Assembly: GCA_902771785.1 (NCBI GenBank) | Contig: CACXYH010000014.1 | Location: 1 to 56,930, forward strand | Direction of reading: 5' to 3' | Source: an uncultured Prevotellaceae bacterium | GTDB lineage: Bacteria > Bacteroidota > Bacteroidia > Bacteroidales > Bacteroidaceae | DNA length: 56,930 nt | Shown here: piece by piece, positions 3,405-39,298 of the stretch | Layout: each line of letters begins with the position of its first letter | How positions within the stretch are numbered: the stretch's first letter is position 1 | Notes under the pieces: generated by a model | What the model was told of the DNA's origin: nothing | Databases searched by the model: none | Seen by the model: the letters and a program-made list of their open reading frames with translations, nothing else | Translations under genes and position numbers: made by a program

Positions 3405-4706
3405 TTAGTTTCTTTCAAATTTTGCTATTTTGTCGAGATAGTACTGGCGCAGGTCGGCCCACTTGTAGTAGGGGTGCATGTCGGTGGCTACGGGCAGGCG
3501 GCACTCGCGCTCGTTCAGCATCGCCTTGACCAGGATGTTGTCGTCGGGTGCAGGCGAGACGCCCTTGCCGCTTTTCTTCGGCCGATAGAAAATGAGCTGA
3601 ATGTTGCAGCCCATGGGGAAGATGCGGTAGTTGCGCCACACTTCGTCGAGCTTGCTCATGTCGTCGGTGCTCACGCCGCAGTTGTCGAGCTCCAGCAGGC
3701 AGGCCAGGGGCATGACGCACACCTCGTGGCCGAAGCGTAGCGTTGCCTGCACCTGCGTCACGGTGTCGGCAGTCGAGATGATGTTTTTCAGCAGGTTCAG
3801 CTGGCTGAAGGGCATCACTCCGCCCGTGTAGGGCGAGGCGCCATAGTTCTGATACCAGCCGATGTTGCGGATGCGCCATTGGTCGTAGACCTCTTCGTCG
3901 GTGAAGAGCGAAAGCAGCTCCAGCTGGGTGTCGTGGCTCTGCATGTTGGTGGCCACGTCGAAGAGCTGGCGCATGAGCGTGGCGGCGTTCACGTTGTTAT
4001 ACACGTATTGCTCGTCGTTGAAGAGCACTTTCATGAGTCGCTCTGGGTGCGTCAGCTTCTGTCGCCACTCGTTGGCCACGCGGTCGCCGCGTCCGCTCTG
4101 CCGTTTCACCTTGCCTTCCCAGTTCTGGTTCAGGTAGTATTGCAGGCTTTCGCTCACGTCGTTGTGGATGCGTGCCGTGGGGTTGGCAGCCATCAGTTCC
4201 TCGCATTCGGCTATCATCGAGAGGATGCAGCGGGTCACCACCGTCGAGCGGGCGTCGATGGTCAGGCCTTTGGCCTTGAATATCTCTGGGAAGTTCTGGG
4301 CCATGCGCTTGCCTATGTTGTGGTGCTGGCGCTCGCCTACGGTCGTGAGGTCGCCCAGGCGGTCGGTACTGGTGTCGTAGATGGCCTGTACCGTGCGCAG
4401 CACCTCCTCGCCCTTGGCCGTCAGCTTGCCGGCCTCTTTCGCTTCGCGCAGGGTGTTTCTGGGGTTGCGATAGTCGCCTTCGCTGATGAGCCAGCGCGAA
4501 CCGTGTCGTCCGTAGTGGCTCATGTAGAACGGCTCGTAGCCCTTGGGAGTGGGGGTGAGCGGGGTTGTAGACAGCTGGCGTTCGTAGTCCAGGTAGTTGC
4601 TTCCCGACAGGAATCGGTTCTCGGCGATTTCCTCGCGTGCCGTCTTTTGTGCGTGCAGGCTCAGCGTGAGCGTGGCTGCGGCGAGCATAGTCAATAGTCG
4701 TTTCAT
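3405..4706 (-). CDS. secreted histidine-type phosphatase (MINPP-like)
   Basis: 433 residues with a signal peptide (cleavage after LSLHAQ, about residue 20). The histidine acid phosphatase signature RHGSRW is at 67-72, with the nucleophile His68. The distal proton-donor region has GHE (about 325) instead of the usual HD, as in multiple inositol polyphosphate phosphatases. The family acts on phytate-like or other phosphomonoesters in the periplasm or outside the cell, so phosphate release from dietary inositol phosphates is plausible but not proven. It is the first gene of an operon with coaW, and a TATCTTTG promoter element lies about 37 bp upstream. Confidence 0.85.
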   Translation of the reverse strand: MKRLLTMLAAATLTLSLHAQKTAREEIAENRFLSGSNYLDYERQLSTTPLTPTPKGYEPFYMSHYGRHGSRWLISEGDYRNPRNTLREAKEAGKLTAKGEEVLRTVQAIYDTSTDRLGDLTTVGERQHHNIGKRMAQNFPEIFKAKGLTIDARSTVVTRCILSMIAECEELMAANPTARIHNDVSESLQYYLNQNWEGKVKRQSGRGDRVANEWRQKLTHPERLMKVLFNDEQYVYNNVNAATLMRQLFDVATNMQSHDTQLELLSLFTDEEVYDQWRIRNIGWYQNYGASPYTGGVMPFSQLNLLKNIISTADTVTQVQATLRFGHEVCVMPLACLLELDNCGVSTDDMSKLDEVWRNYRIFPMGCNIQLIFYRPKKSGKGVSPAPDDNILVKAMLNERECRLPVATDMHPYYKWADLRQYYLDKIAKFERN

Positions 4707-4742
4707 GCTTCTTTAGCTTTTATGGTTTTGTAATGCTGGCTG

Positions 4743-4750
4743 CAAAGATA
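4743..4750 (-). promoter_or_regulatory. -7 promoter element, phosphatase-coaW operon
   Basis: TATCTTTG on the minus strand, 36 bp before the phosphatase ATG, fits the Bacteroidetes -7 consensus TAnnTTTG. Confidence 0.65.
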
Positions 4751-4804
4751 CGCAATTATTTTCATACCTACAACAATTCCTGCGAAATGTTGTATGCGGA
4801 TGGC

Positions 4805-4914
4805 TCCATGAATCGATGCGATTAGTCCCGTGAATCGATGGGATTAGTACCGTAAATCGGGTCGATTAGTGCCGTGAATCGATGCGATTGGTCCCGCTAA
4901 TCGATGAGCATAGC
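4805..4914. repeat. 22-bp tandem repeat array 1 (five units)
   Basis: Five consecutive 22-bp units (4805, 4827, 4849, 4871, 4893) sit between the divergent phosphatase and DUF3667 genes. The unit core is TGAATCGATGSGATTAGT, which holds a dyad AATCG-N3-CGATT. Units 1, 2 and 4 are nearly alike; 3 and 5 are more diverged. There are no unique spacers, so this is not a CRISPR. The unit length is not a multiple of three and no gene covers it. Arrays with the same period lie at 16258 and 38279. Confidence 0.9.
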
Positions 4915-4958
4915 TAAGGGTTTCGTCAGAAAAGTTTGCGTGTTTGCGAAATAATGGT

Positions 4959-4966
4959 TATCTTTG
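4959..4966 (+). promoter_or_regulatory. -33/-7 promoter of DUF3667 gene
   Basis: TATCTTTG at 4959-4966 with TTTG at 4935-4938 exactly 20 bp before it. It lies downstream of an in-frame ATG at 4944, which rules that start out in favour of 4989. Confidence 0.75.
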
Positions 4967-4988
4967 CAGCGAAAAAATACAACGAACT

Positions 4989-5885
4989 ATGAACCTGAAA
5001 GCGCTCAAGGTACGATACAGACAGTTCAGAAGATGGCAGAAACGCCCCTACGAGGTGGCTCCCCTTTCTGATGTGGAGCATACGTGCGCCACCTGCCAAA
5101 CTCACTACACGGGCAACTTCTGCCCGCGTTGTGGCCAGTCGGCCCGTATCACGCGCTATTCGTTCAAGACGGCTCTGCTCCATTTCTTCGACGTGTGGGG
5201 ACTGGGCAACCGCAGCATGTTTCGCACCATTCGCGACCTGATGCTGCGTCCTGGCTACATGATTCGCGACTATCTCAACGGCATGCAGATGGCCTATTTT
5301 CCGCCCTTCAAGCTCTTCTTCCTGCTCACGGCCTTGTCGGTGATTGTAGAACACGGTCTCAACATCAAGGGCGAAAACATGATTGAGCTTAAGCGCCAGG
5401 AAACGTTGGCGAATGTAGACGAGGGTTTTAGTGATGCGCAAGAGCAGGAGCGGCTGTCAGAAAGGGAGCGGGAAGTGGAGACGAAGATGGAACAGTATTA
5501 TAGAAAAATGATGACAGGCTTCTACGACACGGCCACCAGCTATCCCAACATCTTTGGCTTGCTCGGCCTTACGGTTATGTCTCTGCCTCTGTTCCTGCTC
5601 TTCCGCAAGTCGCCCAACATTCGCTTCAGGTATTCAGAACTCTTTGTGTCGTTGGTCTATTCCAACAACATGTATTCCGTTTTCATCATTCTTATCAACT
5701 TCTTCTGTCTTGGAGAAAGGGTGCAGCTGATTGGCACGCTGCTCTATCTGATGCCTGTCAAACAGCTTTCGGGCTACAGCTATCTGTCTACGTTCTTCAG
5801 GTTTCTGCTTGCCTTCCTTGCCATTATGGTGCTGTTCATCGTGTTGGTTGCGTTGCTCGTTACTCTTGCCTACTTCTTCATTTAG
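4989..5885 (+). CDS. DUF3667 membrane protein with zinc-ribbon
   Basis: 298 residues from ATG 4989; the frame is open further up, but the promoter lies inside that extension. A zinc-ribbon-like N-terminus has CATC and CPRC pairs (Cys33, 36, 45, 48). It is followed by the DUF3667 core (GNRSMFRTIRDLMLRPGYMI, FPPFKLFFL), one membrane segment near 105-120, a charged coiled-coil stretch (about 135-165), and about three more membrane helices to the C-terminus. The family is common in Bacteroidetes and has no established function. The gene is alone on its strand and converges on the two-component operon. Confidence 0.8.
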   Translation: MNLKALKVRYRQFRRWQKRPYEVAPLSDVEHTCATCQTHYTGNFCPRCGQSARITRYSFKTALLHFFDVWGLGNRSMFRTIRDLMLRPGYMIRDYLNGMQMAYFPPFKLFFLLTALSVIVEHGLNIKGENMIELKRQETLANVDEGFSDAQEQERLSEREREVETKMEQYYRKMMTGFYDTATSYPNIFGLLGLTVMSLPLFLLFRKSPNIRFRYSELFVSLVYSNNMYSVFIILINFFCLGERVQLIGTLLYLMPVKQLSGYSYLSTFFRFLLAFLAIMVLFIVLVALLVTLAYFFI

Positions 5886-16257: not shown

Positions 16258-16389
16258 TTACAGAACCGCTCTGATTGGCCGGATGAACGGCACGGATTTG
16301 TCGGATGAATCGCCCCGATTTGTCGGATGAATCGCCCCGATTTGTCGGCTGAATCGCCTTGATTTGTTCGTCTAATCGGCACAAGGCAG
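16258..16389. repeat. 22-bp tandem repeat array 2 (about six units)
   Basis: Four clear 22-bp units begin at 16280, 16302, 16324 and 16346, with diverged units on either side (16258, 16368). The unit is CGGATGAATCGCCCCGATTTGT, whose core AATCG-N3-CGATT has dyad symmetry and matches array 1 in the same register. Two units differ at only a single base or not at all, so the expansion looks recent. It is located between sppA and GH28 in a 663-bp gene-free stretch. Confidence 0.9.
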
Positions 16390-16471
16390 CGCTCTGCCTG
16401 TAGCAGGGCCTACGTAATCCTCCATACGGCTTTTCTAAGGAAGTACGTAACGTCGCTCACGTCAAAATGGA

Positions 16472-16692
16472 ACTTTGTGACATTTGACTTTGTGACATTA
16501 AGCAACTTCCATAACTACATCGGCAGTAAAATCCCTGAAATTTTACAGTTCAATGTTAAAATTATATAATATTATAATAATATTAATAATATATATAATA
16601 ATATTAAAATATAATACTATATATTTTCTTATGCATTTCTATCTCCTAACTATTGAACCACCTTAATGTCACAACGTCACATGTCACAAAGT
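16472..16692. repeat. inverted repeat pair with TGTGACA motifs around AT-rich DNA
   Basis: 31-bp arms at 16472-16502 and 16662-16692 are inverted and identical except at two positions. Each holds two TTGTGACA copies. The 159-bp spacer includes a nearly pure A/T stretch (about 16555-16630). No coding frame, DnaA box cluster or gene was seen. It is similar in style to the TGTCAC arms of the element at 38085. Confidence 0.8.
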
Positions 16693-36425: not shown

Positions 36426-38060
36426 ATGCAACAGAAGATTATTATTTTGGACTTCGGCTCGCAGACGACTCAGCTCATTGGTCGCCGCGTTCGCGAGTTG
36501 GACACCTTCTGCGAAATCCTTCCCTACAACAAGTTTCCCAAGGACGATCCTTCGGTGATTGGCGTCATCCTCTCGGGGTCGCCCTACAGCGTTCACGACC
36601 CAGAGGCCTTCAAGGTCGACCTGACGCAGTTCGTGGGCCGCTTGCCTGTGCTGGGCATCTGCTATGGTGCGCAGTTCATCAGCCACACCCTGGGCGGACG
36701 TGTAGAGAAAGCCGACAGTCGTGAGTACGGACGTGCTAACCTTGAGACGGTCGACACGACGAACCCCCTGTTCAAGGGCTTCGAACAGCATTCGCAGGTT
36801 TGGATGTCGCATGGCGACACCATCACCGCCATCCCCGAAGGCTTTGAGGTCATCGGCAGTACCAAGGATGTGACGAATGCCGCCTTCTGGACTCCCTCCC
36901 TCGGGAGGGCTGGGGAGGGGTCAGCACCAATATTTGCCGTTCAGTTCCATCCTGAAGTGTTCCACACCGTGCAGGGCACGCAGCTCTTGAAAAACTTCGT
37001 GGTCGACATCTGCGGAAGTCGTCAGGAGTGGAGTGCCGCTTCGTTTGTCGATTCTACCGTAGCTGAGCTGAAGCAGCAGCTGGGCAACGACCGTGTCATT
37101 CTCGGACTCTCGGGTGGTGTCGACTCGTCGGTAGCTGCCGTTCTGCTCAATCGTGCCATTGGCGACCGCCTCACTTGTATCTTCGTAGACCATGGTATGC
37201 TGCGCAAGAACGAGTTTACGCAGGTAATGGAAGACTACAAGGTGCTGGGTCTGAATGTGATTGGCGTCGACGCATCCGATAAATTCTTCGCCGACCTTGC
37301 CGGCGTTACCGAGCCCGAGCAGAAGCGCAAGATTATCGGTCGCGATTTCATTGAGGTGTTCAATGCTGAAGCCAAGAAGATCACCGACGCCCGCTGGCTT
37401 GCTCAGGGCACGATCTATCCCGACCGCATTGAGAGCCTGAACATTACAGGCAAGGTGATTAAGAGCCATCACAACGTGGGCGGTCTGCCTAAGGAGATGC
37501 ACCTGCAGCTGTGCGAACCGCTGAAGTGGCTCTTCAAGGACGAGGTGCGCCGCGTGGGACGTCAGCTGGGCATGCCCGAACATCTGATTACGCGTCATCC
37601 CTTCCCCGGCCCCGGCTTGGCTGTCCGCATCCTTGGTGACATTACCCGCGAGAAAGTGCGCATCCTGCAAGATGCCGACGACATCTATATCCGTGGCCTG
37701 CGCGACTACAAGGTGAAGCTTTCTGGCGAGGAAGCCCGCAAAGTGCTGGCCGCCGGCGTACCTGCCGACATGAGCAACGGCGAAATCGAAGTGTCGCTCT
37801 ACGACCAAATCTGGCAGGCAGGCGCCATCCTGCTGTCCACCGTCCGCTCTGTAGGCGTGATGGGCGACGAGCGTACCTATGAGAACCCTGTAGCTTTGCG
37901 TGCCGTCACCTCGACCGACGCCATGACTGCCGACTGGGCCCACCTGCCCTACGACTTCATGGCCAAGGTGTCGAACGAGATTATCAATAAAGTGCGTGGC
38001 GTCAATCGCGTCTGCTACGACATCTCCTCGAAGCCACCCGCAACGATTGAGTGGGAGTAA
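36426..38060 (+). CDS. guaA: GMP synthase (glutamine-hydrolysing), with a short insertion
   Basis: 544 residues. The glutaminase domain has GICYGAQ (nucleophile Cys near 79) and VQFHPEV. The ATP-pyrophosphatase domain has the PP-loop [16 protein letters not shown] (about 224-239), and the C-terminal dimerisation domain ends PPATIEWE. It converts XMP to GMP. Residues about 156-166 ([11 protein letters not shown]) are an extra stretch just before the FAVQFHPE strand and are encoded by a G/C-rich palindrome (36891-36922). The frame is kept and all catalytic motifs are intact, so the enzyme is probably active. Confidence 0.95.
36891..36922. repeat. palindromic insertion inside guaA
   Basis: About 32 bp of purine/pyrimidine-biased sequence with CCCTCCC-TC-GGGAGGG followed by CTGGGGAGGGG, quite unlike the surrounding codons. 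It reads through in frame as about 11 residues. Confidence 0.6.
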
Positions 38061-38084
38061 TGCCGTAAACGCTCCATATTTTTT

Positions 38085-38564
38085 TTTCGTGAAAATATCT
38101 GTCACTCTGTCACCAAACAGGCGTAATTCGTTGGATGATAGGATGTTTGGTTGGTGACAGATGTGGTGACAGATAGGGTGATAGATGTATGATAATCTGT
38201 CACCCTATGCATTTTACCCCATTTTTTGCGTGTTTTTCTCGCGACAGAGGTAGGTGCATGCTTCAGCAAAGCACGCTGGAAAGCCAGTTTTTGCAGCAGA
38301 ATCCATCGGTTTCCACGTCGGAAACCAGTGGTTTCCTGCGGAGAAACCGATGGATTCCGACGTGGAAACCGATGGGATACGGTGCGGAATATGGTGACCA
38401 GCCGTGATGGCTGCGATGGCAAAATGGATGGGCTTGGGCGCATAAAACGCTGAAATCCTACACTCTATCACCCTATCTGTCACCACATCTGTCACCAACT
38501 AAACCATCTCTACGCCAGTTAGTTAGGTCGATTTGGTGACAGAGTGACAGATATTTTCACGAAA
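38085..38564. repeat. 480-bp symmetrical inverted-repeat element
   Basis: A perfect 33-bp inverted repeat (38085-38117, 38532-38564) encloses, after 33 bp on each side, a second perfect 35-bp pair (38151-38185, 38464-38498). The inner pair consists of 12-bp direct units GGTGACAGATGT / GGTGACAGATAG / GGTGATAGA. Another inverted TGTCACC copy lies near 38197. The middle holds the 22-bp array 3. There is no ORF and no clear target duplication. It fills the guaA to FNT gap. Confidence 0.85.
38279..38410. repeat. 22-bp tandem repeat array 3
   Basis: Units of 22 bp begin at 38301, 38323, 38345 and 38367, with weaker ones at 38279 and 38389. Each contains GGTTTCC or a variant and, 12 bp on, GGAAACC, forming an internal dyad. 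The phrase CGATGGGAT is shared with array 1 in the same register. Confidence 0.85.
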
Positions 38565-38651
38565 TTTTTTCTGGTATTGTTTGAGGGGACTCCTCAAACG
38601 GGTGTGACTTTATGCAGAAAGTGGTGAGCTTACGATAAAAACACAATAATT

Positions 38652-38682
38652 AAGCCGAAAGTTTTGTGCTTTCGGCTTTTTT
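38652..38682 (+). terminator. intrinsic terminator before the FNT gene
   Basis: Perfect 10-bp stem AAGCCGAAAG/CTTTCGGCTT (38652-38661, 38669-38678) with six T. It would stop RNA coming from guaA or the inverted-repeat element. Confidence 0.8.
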
Positions 38683-38698: not shown

Positions 38699-39298
38699 AT
38701 GGAACATTTGCGAACAACTTTTCCGCTGGCGATATTGGCCGGCATCTGTATTTCTATCGGCTGCGTCGTCAACTTGCGGGTAGGTGGTGTGGCTGGTGCT
38801 GTACTCTTTGCTTTCGGACTGACGACCGTTGTCTATTACGGGCTGAAACTCTATACAGGAACGGCAGGCTTCATTCGCCGGCACGGCGATTGGGGTATGC
38901 TGGCCTGGGTGCTGGCAGGCAATATAGTGGGCTGCTGGCTTTTCGCCCTGCTCATTGGCTATGCGCAGCCCGACTGCATCGCTCCGGCTTCGGCCATCCT
39001 CGACGGGCGCATCTCGAAAGGTCCGCTGGCCTGCTTCCTGCTCGCCATCGGCTGCGGCTTTATCATGACGACGGCCGTGGAGTTTGCCCGCAAGGGAAAG
39101 ATGCTGCCGCTGCTGCTCGGTGTGCCGGTGTTCATCCTCTGCGGCTTTGCTCATAGCATTGCCGATGCATTCTACTTCCTCGTCAGCCCGACGTCGCAGC
39201 TGCTGCAGCCAATGGTGCTGGCTATTTACGTGAGCGAGGTGCTGGGCAACTTCGTGGGCTGTAACCTCTACCGATGGGTGGCACCTCAACAAGACTGA
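38699..39298 (+). CDS. formate/nitrite transporter-like membrane protein
   Basis: 199 residues from ATG 38699. About six membrane helices are visible, with glycine-rich segments typical of the FNT family (GICISIGCVVNLRVGG, NIVGCWLFALLIGY, FAHSIADAFYF, SEVLGNFVGCNL). It would be a pentameric channel for formate, nitrite or a similar small anion. At 199 residues it is shorter than E. coli FocA (about 285), lacking terminal extensions. The promoter sits 5 bp before the start codon, so the transcript would be almost leaderless. Confidence 0.7.
   Translation: MEHLRTTFPLAILAGICISIGCVVNLRVGGVAGAVLFAFGLTTVVYYGLKLYTGTAGFIRRHGDWGMLAWVLAGNIVGCWLFALLIGYAQPDCIAPASAILDGRISKGPLACFLLAIGCGFIMTTAVEFARKGKMLPLLLGVPVFILCGFAHSIADAFYFLVSPTSQLLQPMVLAIYVSEVLGNFVGCNLYRWVAPQQD

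Follow-up and report, generated by a model that had tools for sequence, protein, structure and literature searches.

INTRODUCTION

Several described systems resemble parts of the locus considered here. BrickBuilt of P. gingivalis is, in the portion of its report available to us, a MITE of 84–991 nt present in 19 copies, with a 23-nt tandem array, a non-repetitive leader and tail, and 12-nt tips resembling IS5 elements (PMC4596501). The initiators SaPI Rep and SCC Cch2 are described, in the accessible text of another study, as binding iterons directly downstream of their own genes through a C-terminal domain (PMC7581432). PF05272 (VirE/VapE) is treated as a predicted helicase in the available part of an account that also covers the BT4734-like AEP family (PMC5862659); neither 'inverted repeat' nor 'DUF3874' occurs in the main text of that account.

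We analyzed a 480-bp intergenic object in a 56,930-nt stretch of the draft genome of an uncultured Prevotellaceae bacterium (contig CACXYH010000014.1), hereafter called the window. Like BrickBuilt, as far as the accessible description goes, the object belongs to the Bacteroidales, is intergenic and combines inverted tips with an internal tandem array; unlike BrickBuilt, it terminates in iteron clusters of ~100 bp and has a partner that bears a helicase gene but no recognizable transposase. Assignment to BrickBuilt itself was rejected, because the 22-bp array is accompanied by the tips CCATATTT/TACCAG and iteron ends and not by GAGACC-like tips, leader and tail. With MITEs in general, the family of the object shares a short, non-coding, multi-copy form and terminal inverted repeats, but not target-site duplication. 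As in the available description of SaPI and SCC, a putative initiator helicase gene is followed by a cognate iteron cluster, since the right end lies directly downstream of the VapE gene. However, SaPI and SCC use other helicase families (DUF927, D5-like) according to the same text, whereas the family here uses VapE, and its iteron cluster is doubled, inverted and placed at the very ends, with no recombinase gene between. The encoded protein has the same domains as the BT4734-like AEP family and PF05272 in the part of the account consulted, but the motif I acidic residues of the former were not seen in most element proteins. On balance, we consider it probable, with modest confidence, that the object (~38074–38576) is a non-autonomous copy of a small Bacteroidales mobile-element family, whose full members carry a VapE helicase between inverted iteron ends.

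RESULTS

Architecture of the 480-bp object

The initial annotation had described nested perfect inverted pairs of 33 and 35 bp with equal 33-bp gaps around an array termed array 3, and this geometry proved exact in the window. The outer arms (38085–38117 and 38532–38564) were complementary at 33/33 positions and the inner arms (38151–38185 and 38464–38498) at 35/35, and both gaps, the left spacer (38118–38150) and the right spacer (38499–38531), neither assigned a strand, measured 33 bp. The spacers matched each other at just 17/33 positions, which indicates that the TGTCAC/GGTGACA iteron set is conserved between the arms and the whole arm is not. Taken as terminal inverted repeats, the arms extended over 101 nt with 84% complementarity and 278 nt between them, and tandem arrays were located at 38152–38188 (12-bp units) and 38321–38389 (22-bp units). 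Because the right 101-bp end was found again elsewhere in the own genome (E-values down to 6e-35), the symmetry of the object is not a chance product.

Comparison with other copies by eye placed the true edges slightly outside the 480 bp, at ~38074 and ~38576, with the tips CCATATTT and TACCAGAAAA. The left end, of what we call the A type (38074–38187, plus strand; outer edge set by eye), was aligned with 10 other A ends from the own genome; it comprises an AT-rich tip, two outer iterons TGTCACTCTGTCACC (38100–38114), the left spacer and three 12-bp inverted iterons (38152–38187), so that the iteron-like 12-bp units previously suggested for the inner arms were recovered. The right A-type end (38464–38576, minus strand; tip TACCAGAAAA, outer edge likewise by eye) is an inverted copy of the left one. 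The core, which corresponds to array 3, is a 22-bp array with palindromic units (38284–38394, no strand assigned) and resembles the array of locus L035 described below. The object is flanked upstream by a 544-aa ORF (36426–38060, plus strand), a putative guaA, and downstream by an ORF at 38699–39298 (plus strand), a putative FNT gene, both names being taken from the earlier annotation; the ATG start of the latter was chosen by eye, and the same ORF is also listed with a longer GTG start at 38666.

Copies in the own genome

The own genome was searched as a draft of 3.29 Mb in 123 contigs, in which some ends are cut at contig edges. The 480-bp query gave 41 matches, from which 13 stretches were fetched, and probing with one A and one B end identified 17 ends (11 A-type and 6 B-type) at 13 places including the window. 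Four places were two-ended: the window (A/A), L027 (B/A, ~0.54 kb), L032 (B/B) and L035 (B/A, ~3.1 kb). One end plus an array was present at L026, L028, L033 and L034 (the L034 array being a different sequence), a single end truncated by contig ends at L029, L030, L031, L036 and L038, and an array without an end at L037. The core probe matched at 10/13 places (not at L029, L031 and L034), and the ORFs next to the copies differed among places. Far from peculiar to one locus, the 480-bp object represents a small element without genes, of which many copies are scattered through the genome.

A 21-base end word, with at most one mismatch allowed, was present in 1/150 genus genomes, namely the own genome, and absent from the 149 others; blastn of the end matched 2/40 genomes, the own genome and G014 (two weak 33-base matches). 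Such a search of the own genome and relatives had been set out beforehand as a test of mobility, with conservation at this locus alone in all relatives as the refuting outcome. The result was the opposite, the end being multi-copy in the own genome and near-absent from the relatives searched. The suggestion of a non-autonomous mobile element is supported by the dispersed copies and by the gene-bearing partner with the same ends, although no copy gain or loss was seen directly.

Four contig ends within elements (L029:2280–2389, L030:1–100, L031:1–100 and L036:1–95) share, by eye, a sequence ending in GTAAGCG, which we take to be IS66-like; an insertion sequence seems to sit inside some own-genome copies.

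A gene-bearing partner

At L035, one end pair encloses ~3.1 kb with two genes, encoding a DUF6078 protein (147 aa, E = 1.4e-36) and a 744-aa frame in which BT4734-like_N, VapE and DUF3874 domains were identified. The VapE-like domain (PF05272) of the latter scored 112.8 bits against a curated cut-off of 25, a cut-off that four more proteins also exceeded, and a solved relative, 7pds (E = 1.9e-10), carries the name 'Similar to D. nodosus vapE'. The BT4734-like_N/VapE/DUF3874 protein is predicted to be a replication helicase. Its primase activity is doubtful, because the AEP motif I acidic residues were not seen by eye in most aligned BT4734-like N-terminal domains. The partner with window-type ends encodes DUF6078 and VapE, in a draft genome whose gaps may contain another partner, and its array is similar to that of the window copy. 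By eye, some sequence next to the array in the mini-elements has no counterpart in L035, from which they therefore do not derive by simple deletion.

Reading the ORFs between the ends of L035 and of 16 genus elements, we recognized no transposase and none of the integrase or packaging genes by which a SaPI would be known. The ORFs of the 16 genus elements were VapE, one ORF of ~145–160 aa (assigned to DUF6078 by Pfam in all 5 examined) and a few ORFs of at most 111 aa. When ends were sought genome-wide in G040 and in the own draft genome, where ends are partly cut at contig edges, the VapE pair was the only gene-bearing one seen.

VapE loci across the genus

VapE relatives at E ≤ 1e-100 were found in 46/200 genus genomes. 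A first look covered 29 short loci (L079–L107) from the VapE search, many of them with flanking inverted repeats, and 40 larger loci were then fetched, 14 chosen from the first look and 26 blind to repeats. With a threshold of 38 bits, an inverted repeat surrounded VapE at 29/41 loci (the 40 and L035); because these loci were collected via VapE, the set cannot show that VapE alone sits between such ends, and ends around other genes would be missed. The repeat was present at 15/26 loci of the blind set, with 11/26 below threshold, at 4/15 of the remaining short-flank loci and at 0/3 further VapE-like loci of the own genome. The corresponding controls gave 0/37 for outer flanks, 17/600 for mixed left and right flanks and 3/41 for direct orientation.

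The full-length elements spanned 2.1–3.4 kb (29 measured). By eye, their ends share one plan, consisting of a tip, direct iterons, a spacer and inverted iterons, with differing words (TGTCAC, TGCCAC, TGCCTACA, TGCATACAC, ATCAC, TACCAC and others); the iteron words vary between elements yet agree at both ends of each element. DUF6078 was found in 24/29 elements (disrupted or shortened in L136 and L162; missing from L141, L145, L146, L147 and L150), and the helicase genes of some (L155, L162) were short, without the BT4734-like N-terminus. An array of 20–24-bp units lay between the left end and the helicase gene in 22/29 elements, compared with 4/58 flank and 1/29 coding stretches. It tracked DUF6078, occurring in 21/24 elements with and 1/5 without that gene (P = 0.007), the elements without DUF6078 also having less room; 4/29 elements had neither.

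Among 28 elements, end similarity correlated with the similarity of VapE (rho = 0.33) and DUF3874 (rho = 0.34; each 0/500 permutations), of the N-terminal part (rho = 0.24; 1/500) and of the middle part (rho = 0.18; 3/500), whereas for control flanks the correlation with protein similarity was near 0. Holding as it does for all four protein parts, the correlation may be mere linkage. The earlier idea of a protein-binding platform would fit these data, in that the iteron ends are conserved in sequence and their similarity tracks VapE. By comparison, the proposed long hairpin RNA found no backing, as 0/25 and 0/22 predicted pairs showed two-sided compensatory change.

We also read six loci in named records, where relatives are annotated by family or DUF names only. 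End pairs surround VapE in L110 (B. finegoldii) and L112 (an unverified faecal 'phage' contig), and a weak pair lies beside genes annotated as DUF6078 and BT4734 family in L111 (P. distasonis). The end pair of L108 spans several genes, and in L109:2789–3945 (B. finegoldii) an inverted repeat of 115 bp (84%), containing TCTCTCATA words, surrounds an HU-family gene that adjoins a BT4734 gene; L113 had no end pair.

Mini-elements, edges and insertion sites

Using the full element L124 of the single-contig genome G040 as a query against that genome, we obtained 88 matching pieces and fetched 20 stretches. Eleven mini-elements (L233–L243) had two ends 0.78–1.13 kb apart, with an array inside in 11/11; L245 had two ends, one of them partial, without an array match, and 8 other stretches were single-ended. 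Alignment of 31 ends in 20 stretches (L124's two ends and L245's partial end left out) revealed an edge cliff, with 0.84–1.79 bits at positions 0 to 8 (CTCTACCAG) versus 0.04–0.20 bits at positions –1 to –9. Over the 110 outer bases, the single-base maximum was 0.55 bits, and several ends have common flanking sequence over ~80 bp. The G040 mini-elements have the same end–array–end build as the window object, with different iteron and array words. Given that G040 contains both a full element and array-bearing two-ended mini-elements, we interpret the 480-bp object as a non-autonomous copy that keeps cis sites only. Likewise, G061 and G058 contain L143-family ends apart from the full element. 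A sequence of ~84 bp (L247:757–840) recurs directly outside several G040 ends and once inside one; it may reflect a preferred target or an outer portion that has been lost.

Among the loci compared, no clean empty site was found, and guaA was not found within the ~1.5-kb flanks of the FNT gene at 9/9 relative loci. For one G061 mini-element, the orthologous G058 flanks also border element sequence. In two species, related elements occupy different sites (L134:1980–4755 and L135:3998–6781), and their alignment is confined to the stretch from about tip to tip. Target duplication was not above chance: for 29 full elements, the longest shared flank word was 5.55 in own pairs versus 5.30 in 812 mixed pairs, and the flanks of mini-elements were compared by eye only. 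Classical transposition is therefore not shown. At L129/L130, two genomes have a common left flank (94.7% over 1.5 kb) plus the element, and no adjoining right-flank match was found; at L143/L152, the right flanks are 97% identical and the main element stretch just 86%.

DISCUSSION

Our interpretation of the window object as a gene-less family member builds on its architecture, its dispersal, the sharp edges in G040, the one same-ended gene-bearing partner in the own genome and the tracking of the helicase by the end sequence. In full-length members, two inverted ends of ~100 bp, each an iteron cluster of direct repeats, spacer and inverted repeats, enclose a helicase gene of the VapE type; most of these helicases begin with a BT4734-like domain and end with DUF3874, and most members also have DUF6078. 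In most members, a tandem array of 20–24 bp, often with palindromic units, precedes the helicase gene. The 480-bp copy retains the cis sites alone, namely end, array and end. Acting as a replication initiator, the helicase may bind the iterons at the ends and DUF6078 may bind the array, and the copies could then be replicated and inserted in trans.

That helicase-bearing relatives lack a recognizable transposase hints at a possibly undescribed way of moving DNA. Because the partner is helicase-only and target duplication is missing, we tentatively put forward a wider hypothesis, possible but short of an even chance in our judgment: a mobile-element class that has neither transposase nor integrase and whose borders are two inverted initiator iteron clusters. 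In this class, VapE would recognize both ends and amplify the interior, copies would return to the chromosome with no duplication of the target, end–array–end derivatives lacking genes would be amplified in trans, and the end and array code would be lineage-specific.

A transposase encoded elsewhere (DDE or single-strand HUH/RAYT-type) might instead move the copies in the manner of MITEs, with VapE genes as passengers. Short length, dispersal, inverted ends and sharp edges are MITE-like traits, and since HUH-type enzymes leave no target duplication, its absence here would fit such an enzyme. The available text on BrickBuilt moreover provides a MITE with a 23-nt minisatellite and IS5-like tips (PMC4596501). 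However, the VapE pair was the only gene-bearing one in the genome-wide end searches of the own draft genome and G040, the ORFs of the 16 genus elements were confined to VapE, the ~145–160-aa ORF and a few of at most 111 aa, and end sequence follows VapE sequence; we regard this reading as unlikely, though deserving of weight. If it were correct, the family would be a form of MITE and not a new category. Descent from satellite islands, now decayed and maintained by a phage or plasmid helper, is improbable: initiator helicases with iterons do drive SaPI and SCC modules, as far as the accessible text describes them (PMC7581432), and VapE relatives are present in some phage and plasmid records, but integrase or packaging genes would find no space among the ORFs that lie between the ends, one IMG/VR scan with two peptide patterns confirmed no relative, and the iteron clusters form inverted pairs at the termini.

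Readings without mobility fare worse. Conserved TGTCAC motifs at fixed spacing, and iterons conserved in sequence without compensatory pairing, are what would be expected of host-regulator sites dispersed near genes. Such an operator role is nevertheless very improbable, given that the inverted cluster pairs enclose an array or genes, that the edge is precise in the alignment of 31 ends from 20 stretches of a single genome (several of these ends sharing flanks), and that none of the 149 other genus genomes searched contains the end word. It is hardly credible that a long hairpin RNA or cruciform is the functional form; the arms are able to pair, and hairpin seeds beat all 200 shuffles in 10/20 arrays tested, but the consensus pairs showed no compensatory change (0/25 and 0/22) and spacer stems were strong, by eye, in some copies only.

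With the family read as VapE-bearing elements and their gene-less copies, many VapE relatives become cores of inverted-end elements, which gives VapE, DUF3874 and DUF6078 a testable function. The family would also explain one class of repeats and minisatellites between genes, and it provides naturally occurring mini-elements that have cognate ends. If no transposase is needed, it would represent a distinct route of DNA mobility.

Two further arrays were noted in the window. One, at 4784–4913, is a 22-bp array with AATCGATGCGATT-like units, and no inverted repeat of at least 16 bases was found near it within 4200–5500. The other lies in the region 16263–16692, where a second 22-bp array (16263–16367) is followed by inverted TTTGTGACATT iterons, whose arms (16472–16513 and 16651–16692, 83%) perhaps belong to a different element of similar kind.
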